Origin: Candidatus Nitrotoga sp. SPKER
Lineage (GTDB): Bacteria > Pseudomonadota > Gammaproteobacteria > Burkholderiales > Gallionellaceae
DNA length: 64,000 bases
Assembly: GCA_003402285.1 (NCBI GenBank)
Contig: QFXG01000028.1
Location: 233,422-297,421 of the forward strand
Reading direction: 5' to 3'
Each line of letters begins with the position of its first letter. Position 1 is the first letter of the stretch. The notes beneath the pieces are model-generated. The model saw only the letters and a program-made list of their open reading frames with translations. It did not search any database and was not told the DNA's origin. This document shows, in pieces, positions 2,955-55,941 of this stretch. Both the position numbers and the translations under genes were made by a program.

Positions 2955-3031
2955 TGCTCTATTTCCTCCCCTTGTGCTTGCGTGAAAGTAGCTTCAATAC
3001 CGCTTCCCACGCGGCATTCCCATTGCGCTGC

Positions 3032-3886: not shown

Positions 3887-3889
3887 CTT

Positions 3890-6100: not shown

Positions 6101-6142
6101 TGCTGATACCTCTTGGAAATCTTTATCTTGTAAACGCGCCGA

Positions 6143-6748: not shown

Positions 6749-6953
6749 CGTAAGTAGCTCCCCCAACAAACAAATTAGACTGCCGACCAGAAAAAACGTC
6801 GGCATGCATATCACATTTACAACAGGTAATTTAAAACGGTGCAATATCGCTTAAGTATTTACAACTTAACTGGCACATACCCCCTCCGCAAGGGATAGAT
6901 GCGATAAAACGACGGCATAATGTCCAGTTTGGAAAATAAAGTCAACAGTGCAA

Positions 6954-37687: not shown

Positions 37688-38116
37688 CTAAGGCGACAAA
37701 TTCAACGGAAAACGTAGGACTCCTTCAGCACCGTTGCGTTTTATTTGTACCTGTAACACGGATCGAGTGCCTGGAGCAACTTTCGCCGCTCTGCGATAGA
37801 CACCCACCTCCCCATCTTGTATTGCCTGTATCCATTGGTCTTGATCATCAGTGCGCACCGAAACCATAATGTCATGAACCGGCCCACGCTGACCAGTCAC
37901 TATCACCAAGAACTCGTTTACTCCAGGACGCGGCGGACTGGGCCTGGATTCGACTCGTACCTCCGCATCCTGCCATTTTTGCGGTTGTGTATCGGCAACT
38001 TGGTCTCCGCCACATGCTGATAACAGCACCAAAAAAAATAGTTTAATATATTTTATATTTTTGCTCCGCAATAAGTTAACTGAGGTATACAAATTATTTT
38101 TCTGTATTGAGCTCAT
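37688..38116 (-). CDS. FixH/YtkA-like lipoprotein
   Basis: The product has 142 residues from the ATG at 38116, chosen because it is downstream of most of the preceding gene; a longer frame reaches 38266 within that gene. The N-terminus has a lipoprotein signal with lipobox LLSAC. The rest is a beta-sandwich-like domain of FixH/YtkA type (RPGVNEFLVIVTGQRGPVHD...). FixH/CcoH proteins help assemble cbb3 oxidases, and this gene follows a CcoG homologue and an uncharacterised membrane protein in the same operon. The domain match is by pattern only. Confidence 0.6.
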   Translation of the reverse strand: MSSIQKNNLYTSVNLLRSKNIKYIKLFFLVLLSACGGDQVADTQPQKWQDAEVRVESRPSPPRPGVNEFLVIVTGQRGPVHDIMVSVRTDDQDQWIQAIQDGEVGVYRRAAKVAPGTRSVLQVQIKRNGAEGVLRFPLNLSP

Positions 38117-38525
38117 GGGATTGCTCTTTATTATTTTTATCTGAATCCAGCATGCCACCAATCGACGATCCATATAAATTAACCATGAAACGAACAAAAG
38201 CGCTTCCGGCAGCAACATAAAATAAAGCGATGATGAATCCCCAATCCACCCAAGGACGCGTATCACCCGGACGGAGACCCCAAAACGGAAAGCTTAAACC
38301 CACCGCAACCAGTAACACCGCAACTGTCACGCCTATAAACCAATACGGTATCTTTTTTTGCGATTCAGGTATGGTTTCTACCAATTCCCAATCTTCAAGT
38401 CCACGTTTCGCCATACGTTCTTCATCAGAAGCATAACCAAAATGATCATCCGGCTTCTCTCCCCAGCGCGGCTCATCTACTTTCGATAAACTTTGAGTTT
38501 TCTCACCAATATCACTGGCGATCAT
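38094..38525 (-). CDS. Two-helix membrane protein in the ccoG operon
   Basis: This 143-residue protein has a long acidic cytoplasmic N-terminus (to about residue 62), two transmembrane helices (about 63-84 and 94-115) and a charged tail. Its ATG overlaps the ccoG stop (ATGA) and its end overlaps the FixH-like gene, so it belongs to the same operon. I recognise no family. The context implies a role in oxidase assembly, which is inference. Confidence 0.65.
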   Translation of the reverse strand: MIASDIGEKTQSLSKVDEPRWGEKPDDHFGYASDEERMAKRGLEDWELVETIPESQKKIPYWFIGVTVAVLLVAVGLSFPFWGLRPGDTRPWVDWGFIIALFYVAAGSAFVRFMVNLYGSSIGGMLDSDKNNKEQSHELNTEK

Positions 38526-39862
38526 AGTTTGCTCCTTTGTTCGGCAAAATGTTGAACAGGGAATCGCCTCATCCAGGTATCACCTGCTGAAACTTCGACT
38601 ACAACAGAATATAAGCCTCGTGGCAAATTCTGCGCAATAGAAAGAATAAGCGACTCTCGCCCGATCGGCGATAATTTAACGTCTTCAGCGCTAAGCTGAT
38701 AACTCCCCGGTGGTAAACCTAACACTCGCACATGTAGCTCCGCTGAGTGATACAGTTTATTGGTAAGCGCAATGCGATATTCTTGAACCGTACGACCTTG
38801 CTGGATATCCGCATTACCTACTGCTACATGATAAGGTTGGTATGACCATAATCCCCAAATAAACATCACCGCACCCAATACCACGAAGGGGGACGTCCAG
38901 CCCATCCGGGTAAACAAAGAAATTGCGACGCCACGAAATTTATTTACGCTTTTATTTGTGCGCTTTAGCATATCAAAACGCAATAACCCAGGAACTCCTT
39001 GTTTATTATGCAAACGATTGCAAGCATCAACACAATCACCACAATTGATGCAGCTGTCGTAAATATCAGTTTTGCGCGGGTCCAGATCGATAAAGCAAGA
39101 AGTGACACAATAATTACATTTAGCGCATTCGTCACTACGACTTGTATCATATGCTATATGCAAAGTCTGCTTGGTCTTAAACGAATGCATCCAAACCCTA
39201 TAAATGCAAGCGTAGCGGCACCAGAAATGTCTTATTAACGCAATGTCTATGAAAATGATCACGACACATACCGCATAAATCCAATGCAACGATGCAGCCA
39301 ACTTAGCATTTTCTTGCAGTATAACGAAAGACCACACCACACTTGGCTGATAGAAATAAAATAATGGGATTAGCGCAAAAAACATAGCCGCCCCCAAAAA
39401 TGCCACTCCAAGCAGCATCCAATTCATAATCTTATTCTTGGCACCCGCCACACGCGGTGCTTCGCCGGTTAAGCTGACTTCGGCATGCTTACCTAATAAC
39501 TTGTGTGTAAGATTGTTAGCCCACTCGGCCATAGTATTTTGAGGACAGGCCCAACCGCAAAACACAGTACCTGCAGTCGAGTACAGTAACACCAAACTAC
39601 TCGCTAAAAAAAGCCATGCTCCGGTTACCAAAGAAAAATCAGCCAGCCATATCTGCCGATCCAGCACAACAAAAGCCGCCGCACCTGGATCAATACGAAA
39701 TAGGCCGCTAGCCGGAATTAATACAACAAGAATCAGAACCAGCATCTGCAACAACCGCCGCTTCCAACGGAATTCAGAATAAACTGGCTTAGAACCTACG
39801 ACCGTGCCGATAACCTTAACTGGAATACTGGAAATAGATTTATACTTTACGCCACTGGCCAT
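38522..39862 (-). CDS. ccoG: CcoG-like polyferredoxin membrane protein
   Basis: The product has about 446 residues from the ATG at 39862, which starts seven bases after the preceding stop. An earlier in-frame start at 39928 would overlap that gene. Five hydrophobic segments surround CGWACPQNTMAEW and CRYACIYR cysteine motifs. Two ferredoxin-type groups follow, CAKCNYC and CINCGDC with associated cysteines. The C-terminal domain is immunoglobulin-like (about residues 340-440). CcoG is a copper reductase needed for cbb3 oxidase maturation. The divergent ccoN-like cluster 8 kb away may be its client. Confidence 0.85.
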   Translation of the reverse strand: MASGVKYKSISSIPVKVIGTVVGSKPVYSEFRWKRRLLQMLVLILVVLIPASGLFRIDPGAAAFVVLDRQIWLADFSLVTGAWLFLASSLVLLYSTAGTVFCGWACPQNTMAEWANNLTHKLLGKHAEVSLTGEAPRVAGAKNKIMNWMLLGVAFLGAAMFFALIPLFYFYQPSVVWSFVILQENAKLAASLHWIYAVCVVIIFIDIALIRHFWCRYACIYRVWMHSFKTKQTLHIAYDTSRSDECAKCNYCVTSCFIDLDPRKTDIYDSCINCGDCVDACNRLHNKQGVPGLLRFDMLKRTNKSVNKFRGVAISLFTRMGWTSPFVVLGAVMFIWGLWSYQPYHVAVGNADIQQGRTVQEYRIALTNKLYHSAELHVRVLGLPPGSYQLSAEDVKLSPIGRESLILSIAQNLPRGLYSVVVEVSAGDTWMRRFPVQHFAEQRSKL

Positions 39863-39869
39863 GATTAAG

Positions 39870-42485
39870 TTAATTTCCTGTCGTATTTGCTTCACGGTCA
39901 AGCGGGCTAAGCTCCAATAAGTGCGCACGACTCAATTCCGCGTGTGCATCGCCAGCTTTACGCTCAATGCGCCACAACGCACGCACTGTTTCTACGTGAT
40001 ATGGATTTAGACGCAAAATTTTTTGCAACGCCTCTTTCTCGTTCAAACCATACTCGCGCGCCTGTGCTAAAGACGAAAACATATTATCAGCCAACGCATA
40101 AGCAATCCAGCGATCTTTTGCATTCGCCTTATAAGCCAAGTGCGTCAATTGGTTAGCCTGTTGCGTTGCGCCACGTGCAGCCGCAAGCCAGCTACGCGTC
40201 ATCAACTCGCTCCCTACATAAGCACGTTCGAAAGCATCTTTATCATTGTCACGAATGCCCAGCAAATTTACAGCAACCTCCATTTTCGGCCTGGTTTTCA
40301 GCAAAATCTGTAATAGTTTTGCCACATCTAATTCACCCGCGTAACGCGCGTGCGGCAGACTAAATTCAATCACTGGCGACCACTCGTCTTGCACCTGTTG
40401 CCGAGTACCCGGCAATGGTCCCCAGTAGCGCCCAAGCCACGTCCACCCTCCTTCGCCTGCCGTCGCCTCATCCTGTTGCTTCCCGGACATACGCTGTAAA
40501 TTATGCAGCAATCCCTGCGCTCCCATAAACTTCTGCCGTGGACCGACCAAAGCTAAATGCATTCCATCGAGAAATATTTGCGCATCTGGAAAAGCCAGCC
40601 GAAAACTGTTAAAAATCACGTTTAACGATTTATTGTCAAATTGATTGAGTGCCAACCACTGAACAAATAATCCATTTTCGCTTAGCCGATTACGCACGCG
40701 CTGAAATTGCTGCACTGATAGCAATGAACTTGAACCCGCCAAATCCGGATGAAATACGTCGCCGATTATGACGTCATATTGATCCCGACTGGCGCTTACA
40801 AAATGCCGCACGTCATCTCGTTCCACTTTGGTTTGCCGCAGCACATTGCGATTTAATGGGGCAAACCAGCTCGCTGCAGAATTAATCGCGCCCTGTGACA
40901 ATTCAACAGCACTACGCTCTAAATCAGGAAACGCTAGAGAACCAGCCACGGAAATTCCAGTGCCCAATCCGAGAAATAGTACCGAGCGAGGCTGTTCATG
41001 CAAGAGCAATGGAAGACGCGCTTGATTAGACTGCACGAACACCGCTGTAGGATCAGTTGAAGCATCCATTCTCTGCAAATCGGTTAATAACACACGCTGA
41101 CCGTCTTGTTGCTCCACCACATGGGTCATCGAAATGGCATCTTCGTAAAAATATAAATCTTTGCTTCCCGCTTGCGCCAAAGGCAATAGCATATTAACTG
41201 GCGGTAACTTTACAACTGGCCACGCTGCCATTAAAAAAAACAGTACAGCCAGCCATGCAGTACGCGACTGTGCCCAAGTTAACCCCAAAATCAGCAACAC
41301 TGAAGCTGCCACCGCCACCGTAGCAGCGCTGCCCCAAACCGGAATCAACACTACCCCCGCAACGATCGCACCAAACGCCGCGCCCAACGAATTTGCTCCA
41401 TATAACCATACCCCACCACCATTCGAGCGGCTATTTAACAAAGGCAACCAAGCTCCAAGTGCCAACGTAACTGGCAAAGTTACCAGCGCGACTAGCAACC
41501 CTTGCATTCCCAATGCTGCAAATAAAGAAGCAAACTCAGCTCGCTCCACCCATGCCGAAAGCGCTGGAAGCAGCCATAAACTTAATATGGTGAATCCTCC
41601 AGCAGCAATGGGTAAAATGACAAACCACGTCTGCCTGTGTTGGCGCGGCGCGATCAAGCTGCCGATACCGATACCCAACAGAAATGACGCCAGAATCACT
41701 GTCAGTACATACTCGGTACGTAGCATCACCATCCCGAACAAGCGCGTCCAAGCTATTTGCAAGATCAGACTTGCCGCACCGATCCCGGCATAGGCGAACA
41801 AAAAAACTAAACGAGGTCGGCTCGCCGTAATGCTTTTCTCAGTAACCTGCGCTGTGGTATACCACGATGAAAGCAGCAACAGCGCAACAACTCCGAAACA
41901 GCCAATCGCGGCCACTACTCTGACTGCCCAGACCCAACCCAATGCTGGCAGCAGCCAAAGTGGCAACAGTGCGCCACAAGCAGCACCTAGCGTATTTAAA
42001 CCATAAATCCTACCCAGTCGTTCCGGCTTATTTCCCAAGGCTGCTAAAATCAACGGAAACCCTGCTCCCATGATGAAGGCTGGAACCAGCAACAAACACA
42101 ATGCAACACTCGCAATAAGGCCATACCATTGAAATAACGAGAGCTGCGCCGCCGCATATTCCATGCCCGCTGAGGTCATTTGCAGAATCAGCGGCAAAAG
42201 TAAAGCGTAAACAGCAATACTGCCTTCCAGTGCAGCAAGCAACAGCAAAGGCCTTTTAATTTGGGAAGCCCGACGTGCCGCAAACAAACTTCCCGCTCCC
42301 AACCCCCCCATAAATGCAGCAACGGTCAGCACCACCGCAAAAATACTCACACCGAATTGCAAAGAAAGTATGCGCGCCCACAATACCTCGTACGCCACGC
42401 TAGTCAGACCGAATAGTCCATACAATACCGCCAGCGGCCAATAACTACGCTTTGAAATTATTGATTGTGTCTCTTCTTCCAGCAT
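39870..42485 (-). CDS. Fused MFS-like/spermidine synthase-like membrane protein
   Basis: This 871-residue protein has three parts. The first is a polytopic membrane domain of about twelve helices (residues 15-440). The second is a spermidine-synthase/SAM-methyltransferase fold (about 480-690) with LFLGLGTGISVAGSLAF for nucleotide binding and YDVIIGDVFHP for the acidic pocket. The third is a C-terminal helical tail. Such fusions are common in proteobacteria, but their substrate is not established. It precedes ccoG by seven bases and is probably cotranscribed with it, which suggests a link with membrane or respiratory maturation rather than polyamine supply. Confidence 0.85.
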   Translation of the reverse strand: MLEEETQSIISKRSYWPLAVLYGLFGLTSVAYEVLWARILSLQFGVSIFAVVLTVAAFMGGLGAGSLFAARRASQIKRPLLLLAALEGSIAVYALLLPLILQMTSAGMEYAAAQLSLFQWYGLIASVALCLLLVPAFIMGAGFPLILAALGNKPERLGRIYGLNTLGAACGALLPLWLLPALGWVWAVRVVAAIGCFGVVALLLLSSWYTTAQVTEKSITASRPRLVFLFAYAGIGAASLILQIAWTRLFGMVMLRTEYVLTVILASFLLGIGIGSLIAPRQHRQTWFVILPIAAGGFTILSLWLLPALSAWVERAEFASLFAALGMQGLLVALVTLPVTLALGAWLPLLNSRSNGGGVWLYGANSLGAAFGAIVAGVVLIPVWGSAATVAVAASVLLILGLTWAQSRTAWLAVLFFLMAAWPVVKLPPVNMLLPLAQAGSKDLYFYEDAISMTHVVEQQDGQRVLLTDLQRMDASTDPTAVFVQSNQARLPLLLHEQPRSVLFLGLGTGISVAGSLAFPDLERSAVELSQGAINSAASWFAPLNRNVLRQTKVERDDVRHFVSASRDQYDVIIGDVFHPDLAGSSSLLSVQQFQRVRNRLSENGLFVQWLALNQFDNKSLNVIFNSFRLAFPDAQIFLDGMHLALVGPRQKFMGAQGLLHNLQRMSGKQQDEATAGEGGWTWLGRYWGPLPGTRQQVQDEWSPVIEFSLPHARYAGELDVAKLLQILLKTRPKMEVAVNLLGIRDNDKDAFERAYVGSELMTRSWLAAARGATQQANQLTHLAYKANAKDRWIAYALADNMFSSLAQAREYGLNEKEALQKILRLNPYHVETVRALWRIERKAGDAHAELSRAHLLELSPLDREANTTGN

Positions 42486-43014: not shown

Positions 43015-43437
43015 TTAAAAAGGATAAAACCAAATAACACCCACAATAGCGTGTACAAAGGCCAGCGTGATAGTCAATCCAGCAGAAATCATATGCCACA
43101 CAAATACTTGCTTACCGTATATTCCCATAGCGATGCCTAGCCCCCCGGTAATTAGAAGCAAAATTAACAACGGCACACCCAATAAAAACATTGTCAGCTG
43201 TTTTTTTTGTATGGTTGAGGGCCTGTCTACTTTAATCTGACTGGCTTGCTGTTCAAACGCCTCCATTATCTTAGCGCTATCGCCCTTTTGAACATTATCA
43301 TCAGCTCGTGCAGTTGGTGGTACAACATCATCAGCTCGTGCAGTTGGTGGTACAACACAAAATAAAAATAACACTACTGTGATCAGCCAGCACACTATCA
43401 GATTTGGATAGGAACTATCTCTCGCACTCGCCATCAT
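43015..43437 (-). CDS. Membrane protein with duplicated signal-cleavage region
   Basis: This 140-residue protein begins with a signal peptide. The segment VVPPTARADD then occurs twice in tandem (about residues 28-47), the result of an exact 30-bp duplication. The mature part has a charged linker and two transmembrane helices (about 83-106 and 114-138) with histidines in VWHMISAG and FVHAIVG that could bind haem or metal. It is the last gene of the long oxidase-type operon and its ATG overlaps the previous stop. I do not recognise the family. Confidence 0.65.
   Translation of the reverse strand: MMASARDSSYPNLIVCWLITVVLFLFCVVPPTARADDVVPPTARADDNVQKGDSAKIMEAFEQQASQIKVDRPSTIQKKQLTMFLLGVPLLILLLITGGLGIAMGIYGKQVFVWHMISAGLTITLAFVHAIVGVIWFYPF
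43297..43356. repeat. Exact 30-bp tandem duplication
   Basis: Two identical 30-bp units (43297-43326 and 43327-43356) lie head to tail inside the 43015-43437 gene and keep its reading frame. Each encodes ten residues including an ARA-type signal peptidase site. Confidence 0.95.
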
Positions 43438-43682
43438 TTCTCACTCTCGACTGAAATTGCCTGCTGATCTTTCGGATCGACTTTGCTTTCCGCGTAATGC
43501 CATGTCAACACCGCTATTAAAATAAAAGGAACAAAAAGAACACCCAGCAGAAATAAAAATATATACCAGAGCGTATCAATATGCACATGAAGAAAACGGT
43601 AGCTATCCACTGCATAGCAAATTTTTGCAGAAGTCAATGCGAGACCAAGTACGACTCCCAAGTGCCACAAAATTTTGAGCAT
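43434..43682 (-). CDS. Small membrane protein in the oxidase cluster, 82 residues
   Basis: This 82-residue protein has an N-terminal hydrophobic segment (residues 5-23, possibly a signal ending near CYA) and a second long helix (about 36-62), followed by a charged tail. It overlaps the next gene by four bases (ATGA) and starts two bases after the SUMF1-like gene. No family is recognised. Its place makes it a likely accessory subunit or assembly factor of the same complex. Confidence 0.6.
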   Translation of the reverse strand: MLKILWHLGVVLGLALTSAKICYAVDSYRFLHVHIDTLWYIFLFLLGVLFVPFILIAVLTWHYAESKVDPKDQQAISVESEK

Positions 43683-43684
43683 AT

Positions 43685-44749
43685 TTACTCTCTTTTGTCC
43701 TTTACCCCGAGATTACTTGCACAACGGAATCCAAAAAAATCGGAAGCATAATTTGCAAAAGCAAAATTTCGATGAAACACTGCGGACGAGAATGGATCCC
43801 CCTTCCATGAGCCACCACGCAACACCTTGTAGCTTCCCCCAGTCGGCACAATGTCAATTTCTTTTCCATTTGTCGCCCGCACGATTTTTCCTTTGAACAA
43901 ATCTGAGGGCGCGTCAGATCCTGGATAAGGCGTAAACTCATCCGCCGTCCATTCATTCACGTTACCCGCCATATCCATTACTCCAAATGGACTAACACCA
44001 TTTGGATAAGCATTCACGTTGGTTGTAGAACCCACATTATAATAAGCATTCAATCGCTCCGGCTCCATCTTGTTGCCCCACGGCCAGCGTCTACCATCTG
44101 TTCCGCGGCCAGATTTTTCCCATTCTGCTTCAGAAGGCAGTCGCTTACCTGCCCACTTGGCATAAGCTGTTGCATCATACCAAGACACCATAGTAACGGG
44201 GCGCAACGCCTCGCCTTGAGGAATTTTTCCTTGTTTCCAGTTCAGTGGCGGACGGTGTGAAGTAGCGAATACAAATTTGGCGTATTGCGCATTAGTTACA
44301 GGATATTTGTCTATCGAGAAAGCAGGTAATTTAACAGTATGCTGAGGACGATTTTGTATATCTGCACGTTCTAAGTCTGTACCCATTGAAAAAGCCCCCG
44401 CAGGAATCAATACCATGCTATTTATTTCAAGCCACTCCTCTCTGGAGAGCAAATTTTCAATTTCCGCAGCGCTGTATCCTACCGTATGATTTTTTTCGGC
44501 CTCATGCACGCTATGCAATACTAAATCTTCACCAGCAGCGCGTATGTGCGATAACTCATCTTTCAACTCATAAGTTGCACGCGTGCGCATTTCACCCATA
44601 CGATCGAATCCCTGATTCACCACATACAAGGTAATCCCAATTGCTAACAAAACAAAACAAATTACAAATGTAGCCGATAAGTAACGTTTACGACGGACAT
44701 AATCTGCAGCAGGAAGCGCAGTTTTTCTGTTCGCAGAAGTAACCGCCAT
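43685..44749 (-). CDS. Membrane-anchored SUMF1 (formylglycine-enzyme-like) domain protein
   Basis: This 354-residue protein has one N-terminal transmembrane helix (about 23-44), a short coiled region, and a SUMF1/FGE-sulfatase domain from about residue 110. The domain shows MVLIPAGAFSMGTD, YPVTNAQYAKFV, KRLPSEAEWEKSGRG, WPWGN and VLRGGSWKGD motifs and ends with FFGFRCA. The paired active-site cysteines of true formylglycine-generating enzymes are not visible, so it is probably a binding or structural member such as those near nirK or oxidase genes. The orientation would place the domain in the periplasm. Neighbouring genes overlap or abut, so it is cotranscribed. Confidence 0.85.
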   Translation of the reverse strand: MAVTSANRKTALPAADYVRRKRYLSATFVICFVLLAIGITLYVVNQGFDRMGEMRTRATYELKDELSHIRAAGEDLVLHSVHEAEKNHTVGYSAAEIENLLSREEWLEINSMVLIPAGAFSMGTDLERADIQNRPQHTVKLPAFSIDKYPVTNAQYAKFVFATSHRPPLNWKQGKIPQGEALRPVTMVSWYDATAYAKWAGKRLPSEAEWEKSGRGTDGRRWPWGNKMEPERLNAYYNVGSTTNVNAYPNGVSPFGVMDMAGNVNEWTADEFTPYPGSDAPSDLFKGKIVRATNGKEIDIVPTGGSYKVLRGGSWKGDPFSSAVFHRNFAFANYASDFFGFRCASNLGVKDKRE

Positions 44750-45220
44750 CTAAATATCACTTTCTCTGTTGTCAGAGCGTTGCTTATATAAAAGATCTCG
44801 CGGACTTCTTCCGTAAGTTCCTTTCACCATGATTTCACCCATGACTCCACCAAAAGCTGCCGAAGTCATAACTACAGTCACAAGCAAAGCCCACATACCA
44901 AATGGCATTAACGATGCATCTTCCGGAATTCCACTTAAATAAATACTATCTAAGTAACTAATTGATTTTACTATTAACGGTGGGAAATAACATAACCATT
45001 TACCGCCCAGTCCAAAAATAACAGCAACCAATACTCCGACAAAAAAAGGTAACACCAACATATCTATGATCCATAGACTATTGAAGTTAAGAATACCGCG
45101 AAATAACTCGATTTTTACTCCAAGTAAACGGTCACCGAAGTAATTCAGCGCACAGCCCATGATAACTGCCACTACCCCGCTGGTAAATCGGGTTCCGATC
45201 AAGGGTAACAAGCTACTCAT
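44750..45220 (-). CDS. Four-helix membrane protein in the oxidase cluster
   Basis: This 156-residue protein has about four transmembrane helices (near 10-26, 50-74, 75-90 and 106-130). It overlaps the upstream cytochrome c gene by four bases and abuts the SUMF1 gene. I recognise no family. Tight packing in the operon points to a subunit or assembly role. Confidence 0.65.
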   Translation of the reverse strand: MSSLLPLIGTRFTSGVVAVIMGCALNYFGDRLLGVKIELFRGILNFNSLWIIDMLVLPFFVGVLVAVIFGLGGKWLCYFPPLIVKSISYLDSIYLSGIPEDASLMPFGMWALLVTVVMTSAAFGGVMGEIMVKGTYGRSPRDLLYKQRSDNRESDI

Positions 45221-45705
45221 GGGTGGGATTTTTGGCCTGTAAGTATTTCATGCTCAGATTTACGTGTTTCTTCGAGGTACCAATCTTGCACCTTCAGACT
45301 TGCCATATAGCGTGCCAACAATCGCCGTTCACTTTCCGGCAGGCGCGCATAAGATGGCATTTGATATTCTTTCTTTAAGCGGGATGGCAATATTGCCTGA
45401 GGATTTATCGCTGAAAAATACAGGTAAAACCAATCTTCACTTCGCAAAGAACCCATACCGTCCAATATTGGGGCAGGGACGGCTTTCATAAGATCACGCA
45501 CCGTCCACAATGAATGACAACTTTTACAATTTTGCTGGCGATAAATGTCCATAGCAGCACGCTCCAGAGTAGCTGAAGCAGTACTGTAATAAGGAATGCC
45601 TTTGTCGACTTCCTGAATAGTATTGAGACGCCATAGATTACGCCCCATAAAGCCTACAACCACAATAGCAATTACTACAAAAACAATTTTTTCACCTAGT
45701 TTCAT
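45217..45705 (-). CDS. Membrane-anchored monohaem cytochrome c
   Basis: This 162-residue protein has an N-terminal membrane anchor (MKLGEKIVFVVIAIVVVGFM) and a periplasmic cytochrome domain with CKSCH (Cys60, Cys63, His64) and a candidate methionine ligand in YQMPSYA. The N-terminus is closely similar to that of the cytochrome at 54454, which also begins MKLGEK and has one haem. It overlaps its neighbours on both sides by four bases. Its place next to a CcoN/CcoO-like pair suggests it supplies the haem c that would normally sit on CcoP. Confidence 0.85.
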   Translation of the reverse strand: MKLGEKIVFVVIAIVVVGFMGRNLWRLNTIQEVDKGIPYYSTASATLERAAMDIYRQQNCKSCHSLWTVRDLMKAVPAPILDGMGSLRSEDWFYLYFSAINPQAILPSRLKKEYQMPSYARLPESERRLLARYMASLKVQDWYLEETRKSEHEILTGQKSHP

Positions 45706-45980
45706 TGGCCCTGTTGCTTTTCTTTTTCCTGACGCTTCAATACACGCTCCCGATTCAACATCTGTGCGGCATTCACTTCACGACTTTTTGCATATTCTTG
45801 AGGTGACATTTTTTCTCTATCACCTTCATCAAATACTAGATATTTGATGTCTTCATCGAATTGTTCATTCTTCACTCCCCATCTAATCCAATAGATGACA
45901 GCAATAATAATAAGTCCACCAACCATAAGCCAAAGATAAATAGACCATCCGTCATCCAACGATTGCAAGTAACTTTCCAT
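45702..45980 (-). CDS. Single-helix membrane protein, CcoQ-like by shape
   Basis: This 92-residue protein has one transmembrane helix (about 15-36) and a long charged C-terminal tail with a predicted coiled coil. Size and topology recall CcoQ or the N-terminal anchor of CcoP, but the sequence match is weak. It overlaps the cytochrome c gene by four bases. Confidence 0.6.
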   Translation of the reverse strand: MESYLQSLDDGWSIYLWLMVGGLIIIAVIYWIRWGVKNEQFDEDIKYLVFDEGDREKMSPQEYAKSREVNAAQMLNRERVLKRQEKEKQQGQ

Positions 45981-46023
45981 ATTTTCCTCAGTTGATCGTT
46001 AGGTTACCATCCTAGCGGAGATT

Positions 46024-46344
46024 CTAGAAAAGATTACCGCCCAGCATTTGCAATCCGCCGAAAGTGACTGCAACAATGATGCCTATAATTATCAAGCCAA
46101 ACATCATTTTTTCGCCAGACCTCATTTTCTTTGGCGCATGATCTCCAAACATCACCATATATACGATGCCAGAAAACACCAATACTCCCAGCAGCATGAA
46201 AAAAAACACACCCGTGCTAAATTGCTGACTGCGCATTCCTTCTATGCTTAAATCTAATTTTGGTGAGTACGTTGCGTTAGTTAGCACATTTAAAACATTG
46301 CCTACATTTAATCCTTCAAGAAATGAATAAATAATTATCTCCAT
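46024..46344 (-). CDS. Two-helix membrane protein in the oxidase cluster
   Basis: This 106-residue protein has two clear transmembrane helices (about 45-66 and 79-103), with a loop HAPKKMRSGEKM between them and a periplasmic-like N-terminal half. It is the first gene after the internal terminator at 46366-46399. I recognise no family. Confidence 0.6.
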   Translation of the reverse strand: MEIIIYSFLEGLNVGNVLNVLTNATYSPKLDLSIEGMRSQQFSTGVFFFMLLGVLVFSGIVYMVMFGDHAPKKMRSGEKMMFGLIIIGIIVAVTFGGLQMLGGNLF

Positions 46345-46365
46345 TCATTCCAAATGAATCTTTGC

Positions 46366-46399
46366 AAAAAAGAGTATGCCGCCATAGGCGGCGGCATAC
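46366..46399 (-). terminator. Strong hairpin and T-run inside the oxidase gene run
   Basis: On the minus strand a 10-bp GC-rich perfect stem (46374-46383 paired with 46390-46399) with a 6-base loop is followed by TCTTTTTT. It separates the genes 50303-46428 from those at 46344-43015. It probably ends part of the transcripts, so the first group would be made in larger amounts. Confidence 0.85.
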
Positions 46400-46427
46400 A
46401 TTGTTTATTTAGCCTGCAACAACAATA

Positions 46428-46562
46428 CTAGTTATTTTTTGACCTTATTTGAGGGGTTTTCTTATCATAATGGTCAACAAAAAAGCTATAAATAAATGGA
46501 GCAAAAAACCCAATTGCCACCACTCCCGCAAATAGGGGGGGGCCATAATCAAAATCTATCAT
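46428..46562 (-). CDS. Single-helix membrane microprotein, 44 residues
   Basis: The ATG at 46560-46562 has AGGAGG eight bases upstream and opens a 44-codon frame ending at 46428. The product has a short acidic start (MIDFDYGPP), one transmembrane helix (about 9-29) and a basic tail. It follows the CcoP-like gene and precedes the strong terminator. Size and topology recall small subunits of cbb3 oxidases such as CcoM or CcoQ. The ribosome binding site makes expression likely. Confidence 0.7.
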   Translation of the reverse strand: MIDFDYGPPLFAGVVAIGFFAPFIYSFFVDHYDKKTPQIRSKNN

Positions 46563-46589
46563 TTGATGCCTCCTGAATATAATTAAAAA

Positions 46590-47255
46590 TTAAACGTTAT
46601 GTCGTCTATCACCGTGACGAGGATCACTATCATGATGACGAGGCTGCCATTGATAGGGAGGTAACCGTTTCACAGTAATTGTTACACCAACAAAAAACAT
46701 CGTAAGATAAAATAAGTCAATCGTGTATCCCTTGTCCCACCAAGGCTGCTGACGCTCTCGCTTACCATTAGAACGGTAATTACCCTCAAAATTAGCAATT
46801 TTTACCTCTGGACCCACAACGGTATAATCTTTAAGATCCACATCTGGAAGCTTCATGATCTCCTCAATTTGAGGTTTGATAACACGTAGATCATCCATAG
46901 TAACCGGATGACGGCCTTGCTGACCATTGAACGGACTATTTTTATTAATTTCAACAATACGCTTCATTGCTGCATCATCACCCTGGGTTTCTTGTATTGA
47001 CAAAATTTCAGGGGTATCCATAGCTTTAATATAATCAACATAAATAGCGGCTGTTGGACGCTGACCCCATAGAGGAATAGTTGTCAAAAATGCCGTTGCA
47101 ACTGTTAATAAAACAAGAATAACAACAGGTACAGGTAAACGATTATTATCCTCTGTCATTCCACCAAGATCCTCAGCTTCCCAAAGCTGCTTGGACCGAG
47201 CTACAGTATCCGCGTGTGTCAAAGTTACTAGCGGTTCATTAAATACCCAAGGCAT
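46590..47255 (-). CDS. Two-helix protein with CcoP-like N-terminus but no haem site
   Basis: This 221-residue protein has a cytoplasmic start with the segment GGMTEDNNRLPVPV, a transmembrane helix (about 44-63), a hydrophilic domain, and a second helix near 180-197. The start resembles the EDNNPLP stretch before the first helix of CcoP, but there is no CxxCH anywhere, so it cannot carry the haems of CcoP. It sits directly after the CcoO-like gene, where ccoP or ccoQ would be expected. A structural role in the oxidase is plausible. Confidence 0.65.
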   Translation of the reverse strand: MPWVFNEPLVTLTHADTVARSKQLWEAEDLGGMTEDNNRLPVPVVILVLLTVATAFLTTIPLWGQRPTAAIYVDYIKAMDTPEILSIQETQGDDAAMKRIVEINKNSPFNGQQGRHPVTMDDLRVIKPQIEEIMKLPDVDLKDYTVVGPEVKIANFEGNYRSNGKRERQQPWWDKGYTIDLFYLTMFFVGVTITVKRLPPYQWQPRHHDSDPRHGDRRHNV

Positions 47256-47270
47256 ATCGTTCCCCTTAAA

Positions 47271-48233
47271 TTATTTCAGATTTACAACAAAATCAATTAA
47301 GTTCCTAATTTCGCTATCTTTAGCGTACATGGGCACGTCTGGAGGAGTAGTGATTTTACCTTCCCGATATTCATCGTATTCAGAACGCCATTTTTTGAAA
47401 TCAATTTTTTTGCCATCAGCGTCAACTTCACCCCATAAATAATCAAAACGCGGCATGATGGAATGAGGTTGCACTAAGCGTGGATTAAAGAAATGTAACA
47501 TCATCCACTCCCTCGACGCATTACGTGACCCCACATGCAATAAATCTGGTCCTTTGCGGTCAGATCCAAAGGCTGTTGGAGACTCTCCATTAAAATCACC
47601 TAGCATAGGAGGAGCGCCAAACACTTGCCAATCTTGCGTTTGTTCCGGCAGTAATGTATGACACCACCAACAACCCTCTCGTACAAACATGGTTTTTCCA
47701 GAGCCAGCGTGTAGTATATCTGAATCTGCAGCCTGCTTTAAAACCTCATCTGGCGTCCAGCCTTTCGTGGCCGTCGCATTTTCCACATATGAAAGCGGTT
47801 TATCCTCAAAAGTCAGCAATTGGTCACTTTTTTTAATCAAAAATACAGCACCATTTTCTTTTTTTGCTTCGGTTATACGGCCCTGCTTGACGCTTAATTC
47901 CTCAACCCCCTTGCCCAAATTTGCAGTATGCGTCACCCCGTTCGGCAATGACGTACCCGCAGGATATACATAGGCATACACTGGCTCCATCGGCTCGCCG
48001 CTTTTCGGATCTTTTCTGACTAGCACTTTCAATGGCTTATTCAGGCCGTTCAGAAATGGATCTGCAATTTGCCACCCTGAATCCCACCCTGAAGTCAATT
48101 GCTTATCTAAACCAACCTCAGAACTAATTGAAGCCGCGAGATCAAAACTTGGAAAAAACAAGGTAATACTCATCGACAACCCAAATGCTAATCCAAACGC
48201 TCTGGAACCAACCTTATACTCTCTAAAATTCAT
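47271..48233 (-). CDS. ccoO: CcoO-like monohaem cytochrome c oxidase subunit with long insertion
   Basis: This 320-residue protein has an N-terminal membrane segment (about 8-30) and a periplasmic cytochrome c domain. The haem site is CWWCH (Cys188, Cys191, His192) inside REGCWWCHT, followed by the CcoO motifs GPDLLHVGSRNASREW and HFFNPRLVQPHSIMPRFDYLW. Classical CcoO is about 200 residues. Here an extra stretch of roughly 110 residues (about 50-165) separates the anchor from the haem domain. It follows the CcoN-like gene by 35 bases. The motifs make the relation to CcoO firm, while the symbol marks family rather than orthology. Confidence 0.85.
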   Translation of the reverse strand: MNFREYKVGSRAFGLAFGLSMSITLFFPSFDLAASISSEVGLDKQLTSGWDSGWQIADPFLNGLNKPLKVLVRKDPKSGEPMEPVYAYVYPAGTSLPNGVTHTANLGKGVEELSVKQGRITEAKKENGAVFLIKKSDQLLTFEDKPLSYVENATATKGWTPDEVLKQAADSDILHAGSGKTMFVREGCWWCHTLLPEQTQDWQVFGAPPMLGDFNGESPTAFGSDRKGPDLLHVGSRNASREWMMLHFFNPRLVQPHSIMPRFDYLWGEVDADGKKIDFKKWRSEYDEYREGKITTPPDVPMYAKDSEIRNLIDFVVNLK

Positions 48234-48268
48234 TATTTTCTCCCCAGATTCTGGTTTAAATTTTCAGT

Positions 48269-49678
48269 TTAACGTTCGTAGGCTAATTCATGTGGCATAC
48301 GTCCGGCCGGGATAACGGTACCTTCACGCGCAGTCATCCACATGTTGTATAACCAAAGAATGGTTGAAGAAAATACCATAGTACCGCCCAGCCAACGAGC
48401 AATCATATAGGGATGCTCGGCGATCACGACATCAATGTATGGCACCTCATAGATTTTACCAGCGCCCTGAATTAACCCGGCAATCGTCATTGATATCCAG
48501 TAAGTACTGAATCCAATTAGTAACAACCAAAAATGAAGGTTTCCTAACGTCAACGAATATAGCTTGCGCTTCATCAATGTTTGCAAACCAAGATATACGG
48601 CCGCGGCCTCAAGAAATGTCGAGAACCCTAGCAAAGCAAGATGTGCGTGCGCCACCATCCAACCTGTACCGTGAATATACCAATTAATCGAGCGCGTTTG
48701 CTGAAAACCACCTTGCATGTTGAGTGGAATAGCCAGCAACACACCGACCACAGTAAAACGTATCTCAAGATTCTCAACAAACATGTTCCATTTACCCTGC
48801 ATAGTCAAAAGTATATTTGACACAAATGCGATCGCTGGCACCAGAATTAAAACACCTTCAACTGAAGCGAAGGATTTTAGCCACTCAGGCAAGGGAGCTG
48901 ACATCAAATGATGTGCGGCAGGAGTTGAATAAAACACAACAATCGACCAGAAGTGTAAATGGCCTATACGGTGAGAATACAATGGATTACCAGTCACCTT
49001 TGGAATAACATAATATGCAATGGCTGCAGCAACGGGAGTTATCCACAATCCCAAAACATTATGCGCAAACCACCACGTCATATAGGCCTCAGTTAGACCG
49101 GTAAGATGAAAATACTCCGGTAAATTTCCAACCAAAAATACAATAATCAACATAAAAGTTGACGCTGCAAAAAACCAGTTAGTCGTATAGATACCTTGGG
49201 TGCGGCGTTTTATTATGGTCATCCATACATTAACCGCCAAAGGAATAGATATAAATGCTGCCACAGCAAGATCCAGTGGCCATGGGAAGTCAGAATACTC
49301 GCGTCCGGATGTCACCCCCATCCACATTAGACTCAACCCTAAAGCCAGACAGATATTCCACATCATACAATTCCACAAACCAAGCTTCTCTGACCACAGC
49401 CTTGTGTTCCCTAATATCGGGGTGATATACATCATAGCCATTGCAAACGCCATCGAAATCCAACCAAAGATTACTGCCAGCACGTGTACCTGACGCATAT
49501 GACCGAAGGCGAACATCTCCGTCCCCGTTACAAAATCGGGGAAAGCAAGCTTGGCCGCATTAAATGACCCCAACCCAGTCCCGATCATAAACCAAACAAT
49601 CGCAGAAAAACCGAAGAAAATCGCCGCCGAACCGACCGGGATAGCCTCATTTTTAGCAAACAAATACTTAAGAATCAT
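48269..49678 (-). CDS. ccoN: cbb3-type haem-copper oxidase subunit I-like protein (CcoN-like)
   Basis: This 469-residue protein has about twelve helices. By comparison with remembered P. stutzeri CcoN: His65 for the low-spin haem in MRQVHV, His206 in WWFAHNVLG and His256/His257 in AAHHL for CuB, and His344 and His346 in VAHAHLALLG for the haems. Tyr250 lies where the crosslinked catalytic tyrosine is found, which favours oxygen reduction over an NO reductase. A glutamate conserved in cbb3 and NorB (Glu323 in P. stutzeri) aligns with Gln322 here. AAGGAGATG precedes the start. No sequence alignment could be run, so residue matches are manual. Confidence 0.88.
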   Translation of the reverse strand: MILKYLFAKNEAIPVGSAAIFFGFSAIVWFMIGTGLGSFNAAKLAFPDFVTGTEMFAFGHMRQVHVLAVIFGWISMAFAMAMMYITPILGNTRLWSEKLGLWNCMMWNICLALGLSLMWMGVTSGREYSDFPWPLDLAVAAFISIPLAVNVWMTIIKRRTQGIYTTNWFFAASTFMLIIVFLVGNLPEYFHLTGLTEAYMTWWFAHNVLGLWITPVAAAIAYYVIPKVTGNPLYSHRIGHLHFWSIVVFYSTPAAHHLMSAPLPEWLKSFASVEGVLILVPAIAFVSNILLTMQGKWNMFVENLEIRFTVVGVLLAIPLNMQGGFQQTRSINWYIHGTGWMVAHAHLALLGFSTFLEAAAVYLGLQTLMKRKLYSLTLGNLHFWLLLIGFSTYWISMTIAGLIQGAGKIYEVPYIDVVIAEHPYMIARWLGGTMVFSSTILWLYNMWMTAREGTVIPAGRMPHELAYER

Positions 49679-49760
49679 GCTGCATCTCCTTTTTTAGCTC
49701 TAGGCAGACTTAATGGCTGCCGCAATTTGCGTTAATTCCACTATATATAATTTTAAAGGG

Positions 49761-49964
49761 TTATTTTTTCGAGGTCTTATGCGGCGCTATCGAACCTATC
49801 TCTTCTTGAATTATATCGCCCATCGTGCCGCCCACCACTTCACCTAAAGCATCCGTACCATCCGCCAAATGAATACGCTTGTGCGGCATTAACACATACC
49901 ACGACAGCCACATACTAGAAAACGCCAAAAGCATACAGAACGTCCCTGCTATTATCGCAAGCAT
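49761..49964 (-). CDS. Small single-helix membrane protein before ccoN
   Basis: This 67-residue protein has one N-terminal transmembrane helix (about 4-26) and a hydrophilic tail rich in Gly, Asp and Lys. GGAGGG lies eight bases before the ATG. It precedes the ccoN-like gene by 82 bases. I recognise no family; CcoS is of similar size but no convincing match is seen. Confidence 0.65.
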   Translation of the reverse strand: MLAIIAGTFCMLLAFSSMWLSWYVLMPHKRIHLADGTDALGEVVGGTMGDIIQEEIGSIAPHKTSKK

Positions 49965-50021
49965 GTTTTCCCTCCTTAATTTAGGTCGTCAGATTTTAAA
50001 GAAATTTTTTAAACAGGCCAA

Positions 50022-50303
50022 CTATACATGACGTGCATTTTCGATCGCATCATGACGTTTTAAACCAAGCGCCAGCATTAAACAAAACACAAAGCCAAAT
50101 GCAAGCATCCAAAAACTCATAAAACCATTAAAAGTTGTAGGTATATATGAAGCAGCACCTATACCACCCCAATCTTCGAATCCTCCGCGCCCCATCCAAC
50201 ACATAAGAGCAGCTCCGAACACGCTGCCATTACCCATACCCGTTACAAATCCCGCAATTATAATAATCCAAAAAGATCTAGATGGTATTGACTGCCTTTG
50301 CAT
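50022..50303 (-). CDS. Two-helix membrane protein at the head of the oxidase operon
   Basis: This 93-residue protein has two transmembrane helices (about 11-36 and 59-82) with a glycine-rich loop, CWMGRGGFEDWGGIGA. A GGGGGA sequence lies about 9-14 bases before the ATG. It is the first gene of the minus-strand run leading into ccoN. I recognise no family. Confidence 0.65.
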   Translation of the reverse strand: MQRQSIPSRSFWIIIIAGFVTGMGNGSVFGAALMCWMGRGGFEDWGGIGAASYIPTTFNGFMSFWMLAFGFVFCLMLALGLKRHDAIENARHV

Positions 50304-52360: not shown

Positions 52361-52747
52361 CTAGGATTCTACAAGTAGGGCACCTGTAAAAATAACCAAA
52401 GCTCGCACCAGTAACACAGCTCGGCCTTGAGCATGATGATCAGTACGCATGCTATTATCACAACGAAGCAAACGCAAGGCAGTCTTAACTTGCATTACAT
52501 ATAACGCATACATCATCACAAGCATCATAAAATGTATCCACACTAGAAATGAGGTCAATTCACTTTCCACAATCAAACGCCGATGCCAATCCTTATAAAG
52601 GTACAGATAAATCGGCATCCCCAAATCAAACAATATTACAGAAACCATTATCAGAACATGAAATATGCGTTGCTTAGCGTATCGAAACGCAGCCAACATT
52701 AACACATAGGTTACCAGTGCAATCCAGACTGTACCTGCTGTTAACAT
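52361..52747 (-). CDS. Membrane protein with four helices
   Basis: The product has 128 residues from the ATG at 52747, which begins right at a transmembrane segment. A longer frame to 52798 adds a basic stretch that does not look native. About four helices are visible (near 4-22, 27-47, 65-88 and 110-126). It contains several histidines and arginines near helix ends. It is downstream of the cytochrome/half-size oxidase operon but 218 bases apart from it. No family recognised with confidence. Confidence 0.55.
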   Translation of the reverse strand: MLTAGTVWIALVTYVLMLAAFRYAKQRIFHVLIMVSVILFDLGMPIYLYLYKDWHRRLIVESELTSFLVWIHFMMLVMMYALYVMQVKTALRLLRCDNSMRTDHHAQGRAVLLVRALVIFTGALLVES

Positions 52748-52964
52748 ATTATGTTCTGTCCCGCACCTTATTATTCTCCTAATAGCCCTTCTAAACAACT
52801 TTAACTACTCGTTAATTCCGCAACCATTTATTCACTTCGCTTTAGTCTAATTTAAATATATCTAGATAGATACAGGAAACTTAAACCTTAGCTCATCGAA
52901 CAAATCTACATTTTTAGATACTGTTAAATCAAATTGCATTTAAGTAATTTTTATAAATTGATTT

Positions 52965-53414
52965 CTAGCTAGTTCTAAGATTTTCCTGAACCGCTTGATA
53001 TTCTTTTATGCTAGAAAATTGTCCTTTATGAAATACAAATTGCAAACGCTGGCCTAATTTATCCAGCCCTGCCAGACCAAACGAACGACCTGAATAGTCT
53101 GAATAAATTCGCAAATCTTGCACCAAGCCCACGTGCTCCCCATTGCGCATAATAATTCGAGTTACCTGCTTATCTATCTCAATTGCAATAGGCGCGGTAG
53201 GCAATAACATTAACCGGGTTTTCAATATACGATTGGCACCAGCGATAAAAAAGAAACTGGCCAGAAACGAAAACAAATATGCCAAACTGACATCCCCGCC
53301 ATACCAAAATTTAACTACCATTGACAGTAAAGCTACGACTGTAGGAACATACAACATCAAATCCCACACCATCCCTTTGCGGTCTTGCACTAAACTGAAA
53401 CGTGTATCGCTCAT
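52965..53414 (-). CDS. Membrane protein with C-terminal beta domain
   Basis: This 149-residue protein has two transmembrane helices (about 19-38 and 46-64) and a C-terminal domain of beta strands (residues 75-140), similar in outline to PH-like membrane proteins. It lies ten bases after the thioredoxin-like gene and is probably cotranscribed. Family not recognised. Confidence 0.6.
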   Translation of the reverse strand: MSDTRFSLVQDRKGMVWDLMLYVPTVVALLSMVVKFWYGGDVSLAYLFSFLASFFFIAGANRILKTRLMLLPTAPIAIEIDKQVTRIIMRNGEHVGLVQDLRIYSDYSGRSFGLAGLDKLGQRLQFVFHKGQFSSIKEYQAVQENLRTS

Positions 53415-53424
53415 ATTTTTATGA

Positions 53425-53964
53425 TCAACCCGCGCGACTTTCTATTCCTACCTTCAGGATTTTTGTGATTCCCGCCTCCATTTCACCATGCAACATACGG
53501 CCCGGTTGAACACCACTAACAATACCTTTATCATCGATAAAGAAAGTCCAGGGATCACCCATCACACGATATGCCTTGAATGCTTGCGGATTTTGATATT
53601 GATCCATATGCAAAAAAAGTACCTGGGTTTGATATTTTTCCATCAAAGCTTTCATTATCTGCAACTGACCATCGCATACAGTGCAATGACCAGGCGTGGC
53701 AAATTCCAAGACTATAGGCTTACCGAGCGCCAGCGCTTTATCTAATGAGTATTGGTACATGCGCGCATCTGGTTGACGATATGTCGTCATTTTACTCATG
53801 TCTCCACCAACATCTGCCAATGTTTTGGTGGGCAAACTAGGCGCAAGCATACCCTGCTGCAACACTCCCATTGAAGCTCCCCCTATGCCCCATGAAGAAA
53901 ATTGTTCACCGCAGCCGCAAACAAGGCAGGAGACAATGAGCAACCATAATATTTTTATATTCAC
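53425..53964 (-). CDS. Thioredoxin-like lipoprotein
   Basis: This 179-residue protein begins with a lipoprotein signal whose lipobox is LVCGC, and then has a thioredoxin fold. The active motif CTVC in FATPGHCTVCDGQ lies near residue 95, and the cis-proline region is at MGDPWTFFID. It would act in the periplasm on thiols, for instance in cytochrome c or CuA maturation. The ATG overlaps the end of the half-size oxidase-like gene (ATGA). Its place among cytochrome genes supports a maturation role. Confidence 0.8.
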   Translation of the reverse strand: MNIKILWLLIVSCLVCGCGEQFSSWGIGGASMGVLQQGMLAPSLPTKTLADVGGDMSKMTTYRQPDARMYQYSLDKALALGKPIVLEFATPGHCTVCDGQLQIMKALMEKYQTQVLFLHMDQYQNPQAFKAYRVMGDPWTFFIDDKGIVSGVQPGRMLHGEMEAGITKILKVGIESRAG

Positions 53965-54473
53965 CTAGGCCGGTTCCATCCATTACAAGTACGATATATA
54001 TTATATCCCCAGATAATATTAGCCAGCAAAACCACGCTACCAAACATGCCTGCGAGTGACATAAAACGTGATGCCACCGACTCTGCATCGTCCTCAATAA
54101 AAATACCAATCAACCCCGCAGAGCTGAAGAAAACCACGACTCCCAGCAAGCCAAGGTTATGCATCCAGAAATGGATCTTGACCAAACGCAGACTGTAGAT
54201 GGAACGACGCACCAGCCTTGGAATAAGATAATACACCGCGCCAAAAATAGCCATTTCCACCCATCCCAACAAATTAATATGGGTATGTCCTAAAACGATC
54301 CTGTGGCCGGGTATTCCACTATTAACAAAATGCCTAAAGGTGGGAACTCCACCCATTAGGGCTCCCCAAGAAAAACCGATTATGCTGTAAATAATGCACG
54401 CATAAATAAACCACAGTGTATATTTGGTATATTCTTTATCCTGAGCCCAAGGCTCATTTAGTTCCTGCATCAT
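53961..54473 (-). CDS. Second half-size haem-copper oxidase subunit I-like protein
   Basis: This 170-residue protein has about four transmembrane helices, with GHTHINLLGWVEMAIFGAVYYLIPRL in the second and YSLRLVKIHFWMHNLGLL in the third. It shares these blocks and its size with the protein at 37157-37675 and both relate to one four-helix part of CcoN or NorB. The copper-site and catalytic tyrosine motifs are absent. It overlaps the upstream cytochrome c gene by 20 bases and the downstream thioredoxin-like gene by four, so a tight operon with a monohaem cytochrome is clear. Confidence 0.75.
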   Translation of the reverse strand: MMQELNEPWAQDKEYTKYTLWFIYACIIYSIIGFSWGALMGGVPTFRHFVNSGIPGHRIVLGHTHINLLGWVEMAIFGAVYYLIPRLVRRSIYSLRLVKIHFWMHNLGLLGVVVFFSSAGLIGIFIEDDAESVASRFMSLAGMFGSVVLLANIIWGYNIYRTCNGWNRPR

Positions 54474-55050
54474 GCTGATTCTCTCTCACTTTTAATTTCA
54501 CTTCTTCACGTACATCCTTATAATCCGATTTCCAGCTGTCTGGCGCCCACATCCTAACCATCTCATCAATAAACTTAGATTCTCCGCCTACTGGGGGAAG
54601 TCGCGACGCATTAGACCCTGGGTTGGCTCGCAACTCAGCAAGAAACTGAGCAATCGCTCGCAAGTCCGCTTGTGGCAATTTCGCTACAAAAGCAGCCCCC
54701 TTAGAAGAACCGTGATCCATCGTCGTTCCAGGGTAAGTCGCTTCTGGATCTGTTAAAAATTTATTAAGATACTCAAGAGTTCGTTTGGAACCAATACCAT
54801 CGAGAACCAGCCCCATATTTGTACCATTGCGCATTGCCCGGTGACAGACGGTACATCCCGCTGTACGAAATAATTCTGACCCGCGCAAGCCTTCTGTGGA
54901 AAAATCATACTGAAGAACTGGGTACATCGGCTTATCTAAGCGGGACCTGACAACCTCTAGCACTAACCAACTGATAAAAGCCATAATGAAAATCAGCGCA
55001 AAACCTCCAAATAGCAATTTTTCTCCAAGTTTCATATTGCTAATTGCCAT
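54454..55050 (-). CDS. Membrane-anchored monohaem cytochrome c (paralog of 45217-45705)
   Basis: This 198-residue protein has an N-terminal membrane anchor (about residues 12-34) followed by a cytochrome domain with CTVCH (Cys66, Cys69, His70) and a likely methionine ligand downstream. It begins MAISNMKLGEK; an in-frame ATG gives MKLGEK, the same start as the cytochrome at 45217. The gene heads an operon with the half-size oxidase-like and thioredoxin-like genes. The pair cytochrome c plus small haem-b-like membrane protein recalls NorC/NorB or a quinol-cytochrome module, but the role is not known. Confidence 0.85.
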   Translation of the reverse strand: MAISNMKLGEKLLFGGFALIFIMAFISWLVLEVVRSRLDKPMYPVLQYDFSTEGLRGSELFRTAGCTVCHRAMRNGTNMGLVLDGIGSKRTLEYLNKFLTDPEATYPGTTMDHGSSKGAAFVAKLPQADLRAIAQFLAELRANPGSNASRLPPVGGESKFIDEMVRMWAPDSWKSDYKDVREEVKLKVRENQHDAGTK

Positions 55051-55161: not shown

Positions 55162-55941
55162 CTACCGATGTAAAACCTGCTCCAGAACAGTCTGATTATC
55201 AATAACAAGACCATCCCTTACATTAACTGGCGGAGCACTAGTAAGATATGCAGCGACATTATAAATGTCATCATCTGTGAGGGTTTTCGCCACCGCTTGC
55301 ATCATTGAAACTCCTCCAACTACAGGATCATTATTCCTTGTGCCATCACGCCAACTTTTTAACTGATTAACCAAATACACATACTTCTGATTGCCAATTG
55401 CCGGAAACATAGGGTCAGCACCGCGACCATTAAATCCATGGCACGAATAACAAGAAGCCACCTTACCCTTTACCCCACTATGAACCAGAAGCTTTCCTAA
55501 ATACGGCTTACCAACCTGCTGCCCTTCTGCTTTTAGGGCTTTCAAATCAGATGGCTCATATTTTCTCGGCAAACTATCTACAAATGCAGCCACATCACGA
55601 CGGTCTTGCTCGCTTAATGCCTTAGCAAATCCGTTCATTACCGCGCCTAATCCAGAGGGAACCCGCTTATCAGCGGCAAAATTAGTAAGCTGTTTAACTA
55701 TATAAACATAACCAATATTGGCTAAACGAGGCGCACCCATAGCATCATTACCCAATGCATTTTCACCATGACAGGACAGGCAAGCAGGAACATCCCCTTT
55801 TCCTTGGGTAAAGATTATTTTACCGTTAGCAGGATTCGCGCTAACTTTTCCAGCTTCCGCAGAAGCGGCCGTTCCTGATACTAGTACAGTGATAGCTATT
55901 GTTGCAAGCCATGACGACAACATGGATGTAGATTTGCGCAT
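55162..55941 (-). CDS. Diheme cytochrome c4-family protein
   Basis: This 259-residue periplasmic protein has a signal peptide (to about residue 28) and two class I cytochrome domains. The first has CLSCH near residue 54 and the second CYSCH near residue 164, each with a candidate methionine ligand. Both have the cytochrome c4-like pattern of haem motif followed by GxGxDxxxP. A run of Gs lies just before the ATG. It is transcribed alone and ends at a strong terminator. Cytochrome c4 proteins donate electrons to cbb3-type oxidases in several bacteria, which fits the nearby genes. Confidence 0.88.
   Translation of the reverse strand: MRKSTSMLSSWLATIAITVLVSGTAASAEAGKVSANPANGKIIFTQGKGDVPACLSCHGENALGNDAMGAPRLANIGYVYIVKQLTNFAADKRVPSGLGAVMNGFAKALSEQDRRDVAAFVDSLPRKYEPSDLKALKAEGQQVGKPYLGKLLVHSGVKGKVASCYSCHGFNGRGADPMFPAIGNQKYVYLVNQLKSWRDGTRNNDPVVGGVSMMQAVAKTLTDDDIYNVAAYLTSAPPVNVRDGLVIDNQTVLEQVLHR

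Follow-up and report, generated by a model that had tools for sequence, protein, structure and literature searches.

A conserved thirteen-gene block around a distal-type CcoN, without a diheme CcoP, in Candidatus Nitrotoga

Which enzyme is encoded by a run of minus-strand genes that contains relatives of CcoN and CcoO but no diheme CcoP? The run lies at positions 43015–50303 of the 64,000-nucleotide stretch of Candidatus Nitrotoga sp. SPKER analysed here (contig QFXG01000028.1; “the window”), in a genome of 2.98 Mb. We propose, with a probability of about 0.85 and from sequence comparisons, that it encodes an oxygen-reducing haem-copper enzyme of the C family (cbb3 type) whose CcoN belongs to the “distal” lineage, and that this enzyme is most likely the principal, or even the sole, cytochrome c oxidase of a Nitrotoga-type nitrite oxidiser.

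The run comprises 13 minus-strand ORFs (A, B, N, O, P, Q, C, S, c, D, E, F and G; Table 1). A preliminary description, made from the sequence alone, had counted twelve; all the genes it named are present and on that strand. It also stated that the genes overlap by four bases or abut. This holds for three of the 12 junctions (overlaps of 4 nt) and for two others (gaps of 0 and 2 nt), but the seven remaining junctions have gaps of 15–83 nt. The CcoN-like, CcoO-like and SUMF1-fold assignments are borne out by Pfam (COX1 for N, FixO for O with a cut-off of 29.6 bits, FGE-sulfatase for E). Pfam searches gave no match for P, D, F and G, and an NCBIfam search gave none for A. The Pfam matches of C and S are sub-threshold, that of S being to FixS (E 0.0043, below the cut-off).

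Table 1. Features of the locus, in order of decreasing coordinates. The last column gives the number of loci with the feature among the best 80 of the 181 stretches encoding the family of P.
Feature	Coordinates	Strand	Description	Loci (of 80)
v	55162..55941	-	diheme cytochrome c (two CxxCH), possible electron donor	36
u	54454..55050	-	membrane-anchored monohaem cytochrome c (Cytochrom_C)	36
t	53961..54473	-	170 aa, four helices; matches COX1 positions 300-407 only, C-terminal part	
thioredoxin-like lipoprotein	53425..53964	-	AhpC-TSA just over cut-off; same place in L199, L204, L205	
149-aa membrane protein	52965..53414	-	same neighbour in L199, L204, L205	
A	50022..50303	-	opens the run; 93 aa, two membrane helices (predicted)	70
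B	49761..49964	-	67-aa single-helix protein	66
N	48269..49678	-	CcoN-like catalytic subunit, 469 aa; COX1 E 1.4e-77	76
O	47271..48233	-	CcoO-like monohaem cytochrome, 320 aa; FixO 65.8 bits	80
P	46590..47255	-	haem-less two-helix protein, 221 aa, family A1	80
Q	46428..46562	-	44 aa, single helix, CcoQ size, smallest ORF	80
terminator-like hairpin + T run	46374..46399	-	between Q and C, in one of the gaps	66
C	46024..46344	-	106 aa, two predicted helices	80
S	45702..45980	-	92 aa, weak FixS/CcoS likeness	80
c	45217..45705	-	membrane-anchored monohaem cytochrome c, 162 aa	80
D	44750..45220	-	156-aa membrane protein	76
E	43685..44749	-	membrane-anchored SUMF1/FGE-fold, 354 aa; FGE-sulfatase 192 bits	77
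F	43434..43682	-	82-aa membrane protein	70
G	43015..43437	-	140-aa membrane protein	68
H	39870..42485	-	fused MFS/spermidine-synthase-type, 871 aa; NF037959 90 bits, over cut-off	
I	38522..39862	-	CcoG-like iron-sulfur membrane protein, 446 aa from start used in relatives	
P'	38094..38525	-	143-aa second P-like haem-less protein; overlaps I by 4 nt	
J	37688..38116	-	small lipoprotein-like protein, true start unsure; relatives in 62/110 loci searched	

The best PDB match of N is CcoN, NorB being matched weakly (E 1.7e-5). Its six haem/CuB histidines and the active-site Tyr250 are kept in 117 distal-type CcoN sequences (the window's included, and some near-duplicates), the sole departure being one ambiguous letter at His65. 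In the two NOR controls the position of Tyr250 is occupied by Leu or Ile. Because these seven residues are kept, N is by its sequence an oxygen reductase. For comparison, the CuB histidines of P. stutzeri are residues 207, 257 and 258 according to the part of PMC3578206 consulted. N is nevertheless about 31% identical to classical CcoN and does not reach the cut-off of TIGR00780 (227 bits, cut-off 583). In a tree of 45 sequences, confined to Pseudomonadota and with long branches (L159 and L168 above all) that may be falsely joined according to a warning of the program, 24 distal CcoNs form one clade (99/98), 19 classical CcoNs stand beside it (93/83) and the two NORs fall outside. N is thus placed in a separate clade, outside the classical one. 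Relative to 13 classical sequences many polar positions of N are kept, but a Tyr (316 in our numbering) and a Ser (our 239) that are invariant in these sequences are replaced by Ala and Gly. We take both positions to belong to the proton channel of classical cbb3; because of these two replacements proton conduction may differ.

O falls below the cut-off of TIGR00781 (67 bits, cut-off 200), and its best PDB matches, by sequence and by fold, are CcoO chains. It is predicted to carry a beta domain, at about residues 68–152, between the membrane anchor and the haem domain. P, which follows CcoO in all 80 loci (best 80 of 181), has no CxxCH. It had been described as a haem-less protein with a CcoP-like N-terminus: it is indeed real, conserved and haem-less, but its relationship with CcoP is a weak one, since the likeness of its first helix to the CcoP anchor reaches in hhalign E values of 0.0044 (probability 8%) and 0.0017 (15%), while an unrelated control pair reached 0.0047. 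No PDB fold match was found for P. The absence of a diheme CcoP from the run is confirmed and extends further, as FixP_N, i.e. the CcoP anchor, has no match anywhere in the genome. A classical position of N, together with a ccoP gene elsewhere in the genome, had been named as what would speak against an unusual oxidase; N lies outside the classical CcoNs and the genome yielded no gene of the ccoP type, so that the earlier reading is not refuted on this ground. The claim that this is not a textbook cbb3 operon stands.

FixH was not found in the genome either. One full-length COX1 protein and one CydA are encoded, and no second full-length haem-copper oxidase was found. Given the lack of FixP_N, of FixH and of such a second oxidase, the enzyme is probably the only cytochrome c oxidase of this genome. 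A copper ATPase is also encoded, which we do not assign to cbb3 assembly.

Among the remaining proteins of the run, c exceeds the cut-off of Cytochrom_C (24.8 bits). As expected for the small cytochrome c announced by the preliminary description, it has one CxxCH and a candidate axial ligand, Met116, conserved in at least 95% of 80 sequences. In G, His115 and His129 lie 14 residues apart in the last predicted helix and are invariant in 69 sequences; this spacing is known from b-type cytochromes. Formylglycine-generating enzymes have a conserved catalytic Cys pair; in 75 sequences of E, none of the Cys residues of the domain reaches 95% conservation, which speaks against such an activity of E.

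To follow the block in other genomes, one genome per species (84,980 species) was scanned with peptide patterns of the family of P. This gave 181 encoding stretches, the best 80 of which constitute the set to which all counts out of 80 refer. In these 80 loci the order A-B-CcoN-CcoO-P-Q-C-S-cytc-D-SUMF1-F-G recurs, except where a gene is truncated away or escapes detection and, in a single locus, where genes lie elsewhere; the search for a conserved block suggested earlier thus has a positive outcome. Many of the missing genes fall at contig ends. D is undetected in L097 and L107 although both run on to E, F is undetected in L084, and in L059 the matches of A and B are located after G, not before N. 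The conservation of the block is well beyond chance. Of the same best 80 loci, 32 are named after groups that oxidise nitrite or iron (9 Nitrotoga, 12 Gallionella/Gallionellaceae, 3 Sideroxydans and 8 Ferrovum/Ferrovaceae), 4 are Chromatiales-type and 44 carry broad names only.

At the level of genomes, 42 of 398 sampled from the same phylum contain CcoN matches of at least 69% identity among the matches listed; the remaining listed matches are at or below 34%, and short fragments may escape such a count. The 42 genomes, the window's own apart, belong to three families that we assume to be Zetaproteobacteria. At the class level P is present in 23 of 274 genomes, the window's own included. Within the genus, distal-type CcoN was found in 14 of 18 genomes (complete in 13, truncated at the end of its contig in one). 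Of the other four, three have no CcoN match and one has a classical CcoN only; two of these four are 91% and 97% complete. Two individual genomes deserve mention. L186 (G010), of the same genus and 83% complete, encodes a classical CcoN and CcoO instead, by contamination or by a real replacement. The more divergent L194 (G528), with 69% CcoN identity, has a 321-aa protein with one CxxCH between Q and C.

It had been concluded that the genes are expressed together. Joint expression has to be qualified, because the gap after Q holds a conserved terminator-like hairpin. It is found there in 66 of the 80 loci (best 80 of 181), which are not independent, 11 of them being Nitrotoga or very near. After the other twelve genes hairpins are counted 0 to 9 times (of 66 to 80); with block-shuffled controls the count is 0 to 3. 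The stem is kept although its sequence varies. Partial termination may thus separate a structural module from one that would be expressed at a lower level.

The locus extends beyond both ends of the run, with the CcoG-like gene I and the second P-like gene P' downstream, and cytochromes and the short CcoN-like protein t upstream. H, I, P', J, v, u, t, the thioredoxin-like lipoprotein and the 149-aa membrane protein occupy the same positions in relatives wherever the contig reaches that far; in particular, L195, L199, L204 and L205 have a gene of about 870 aa at the place of H. I matches TIGR02745 below its cut-off (E 6.4e-32) and is the sole match of this model in the genome. P' shares 95.8% identity with its counterpart in L051, and the profile of P matches that counterpart. 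In the Nitrotoga loci the upstream part is separated from A by a plus-strand membrane-protein gene (50532–52007 in the window) and others, and the separating genes are missing from L199 and L205.

In t an HxH motif (His63 and His65) is invariant in 79 sequences. Another short four-helix protein with an HxH motif, which likewise corresponds to the C-terminal part of COX1 only, is encoded at 37157–37675 on the plus strand, so that short COX1-like proteins flank the oxidase locus on both sides. Both might bind haem b. Between the upstream part and A lies also a gene for a 145-aa membrane protein (52361–52798, minus strand); to the eye, L195 and L199 have similar proteins close to the far end of their loci. 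Elsewhere in the window, a minus-strand run at 526–6844 resembles alternative complex III, by eye from the ORF starts.

Could the enzyme reduce NO rather than O2? The lineage metabolises nitrite and N has the weak match to NorB, so that one might imagine a C-family oxidase that has turned into a nitric oxide reductase. We give this hardly any credence: the oxygen-reductase tyrosine, replaced in both NOR controls, is invariant (117/117), which disfavours NO reduction as the main function, the distal clade is far from the NORs in the tree, and the genome would be left without a cytochrome c oxidase. It is also improbable that we are dealing with a classical cbb3 in which another diheme cytochrome of the genome fills the role of CcoP. 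The candidate would be v, whose score against the ccoP model TIGR00782 is weak (49.6 bits, cut-off 180) and which is found in fewer than half of the best 80 loci, as compared with the constant presence of P behind CcoO; the lack of FixP_N in the genome and the position of N outside the classical clade also argue against it.

The hairpin raises a more serious objection. As it is conserved and divides two groups of genes, the oxidase could consist of A-B-N-O-P-Q only, and the genes behind it (SUMF1, cytochrome c, small membrane proteins) could encode a separate complex that travels with it. Against this, the two groups occur together and in order in Nitrotoga, Ferrovum, Chromatiales-type MAGs and other genomes of the phylum, and we regard a second complex as rather unlikely.

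In the C-family oxygen reductase that we favour, A, B, N, O, P and Q would form the structural complex, and the hairpin would lower the expression of the genes behind it, C to G, which together with the CcoG-like I would provide additional parts or serve in assembly. Nitrite would donate electrons that reach the haem of CcoO by way of a cytochrome c in the periplasm (v, u or c) and continue to haem b and to the b3-CuB site, where O2 would be reduced and protons moved. P would retain only the membrane-anchor role of CcoP, and separate one-haem cytochromes would take over from its two haems. Weighing against this reading are the two replaced polar residues of N, the four genomes of the genus in which no distal-type CcoN was found, the lack of FixH, the long branches and narrow sampling of the tree, and the response of the distal form of Sideroxydans ES-1 to thiosulfate instead of Fe(II). 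Nitrite and Fe(II) oxidisers obtain little energy per electron. It is conceivable, and we suggest it tentatively, that the block defines a separate C-family subclass of a dozen or more subunits, with the haem-less P, P' and one-haem cytochromes for CcoP, extra b haems in G and in the short CcoN-like proteins t and x, and a rebuilt proton channel, possibly to suit electron donors of high potential like nitrite and Fe(II); its odds are lowered by the reported rise of the distal cbb3 of Sideroxydans with thiosulfate. The block amounts to a parts list, conserved in several lineages and including P with no known fold matched, for the terminal enzyme of such oxidisers, which has to accept electrons from high-potential donors and still build a proton gradient. 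The label “cbb3, high affinity”, given to the oxidase of Nitrotoga fabula in the literature consulted, assumes the properties of classical enzymes.

How does this locus compare with known systems? The excerpts consulted of PMC8788666, PMC7029218 and PMC10734462, which deal with Sideroxydans, Zetaproteobacteria and Gallionellaceae, distinguish a proximal from a distal cbb3. The distal one has a CcoN lineage of its own, occurs in these families next to classical cbb3 and differs in subunit composition. A CcoN subtree apart from classical CcoN and in iron-oxidiser families is what we found, and our block is very probably this “distal cbb3” already named for iron oxidisers; its identity with the distal subtree of Ducluzeau 2008 rests on the use of the term in these later papers. 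In Sideroxydans ES-1 the distal ccoN/ccoO are highly expressed, about threefold above the proximal ones; expression of the distal form rose in cultures grown with thiosulfate, that of the proximal form in cultures with Fe(II)-citrate (same papers). The link with iron and nitrite oxidisers drawn by the preliminary description is supported by the 32 loci cited above; the expression in ES-1 speaks against a role confined to iron or nitrite. The 13-gene block, P, P', the hairpin and the CcoG-like gene are not described in those excerpts, and we found no description of the full block in the parts of the literature searched.

The cluster FERRO_02510-02610 of Ferrovum JA12, described in 2016, likewise has cbb3 subunits I and II without III and co-localised c-type cytochromes, a neighbouring one being proposed as substitute subunit III (PMC4725956). 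The spacing of its locus tags seems to fit N-O-P-Q-C-S-c; the remaining genes of the block are not described in the part of that account consulted. The distinct class suggested earlier is therefore supported as a separate CcoN clade but not as an undescribed one: this appears to be an enzyme lineage already named, with a conserved architecture that is little described, and not a new enzyme class. Nitrospina gracilis is, in the part of PMC3578206 consulted, also a nitrite oxidiser with a C-family oxidase, but there three subunits are fused into one protein of 954 aa with one plus two haem c sites. With classical cbb3 (CcoNOQP; P. stutzeri 3mk7) the block shares the ligands of the binuclear centre, a monohaem CcoO, a CcoQ-sized protein and a CcoG-like factor; it differs by the lack of diheme CcoP and FixH, by its divergent CcoN, by the added domain of CcoO and by the extra proteins A, B, C, c, D, E, F and G.
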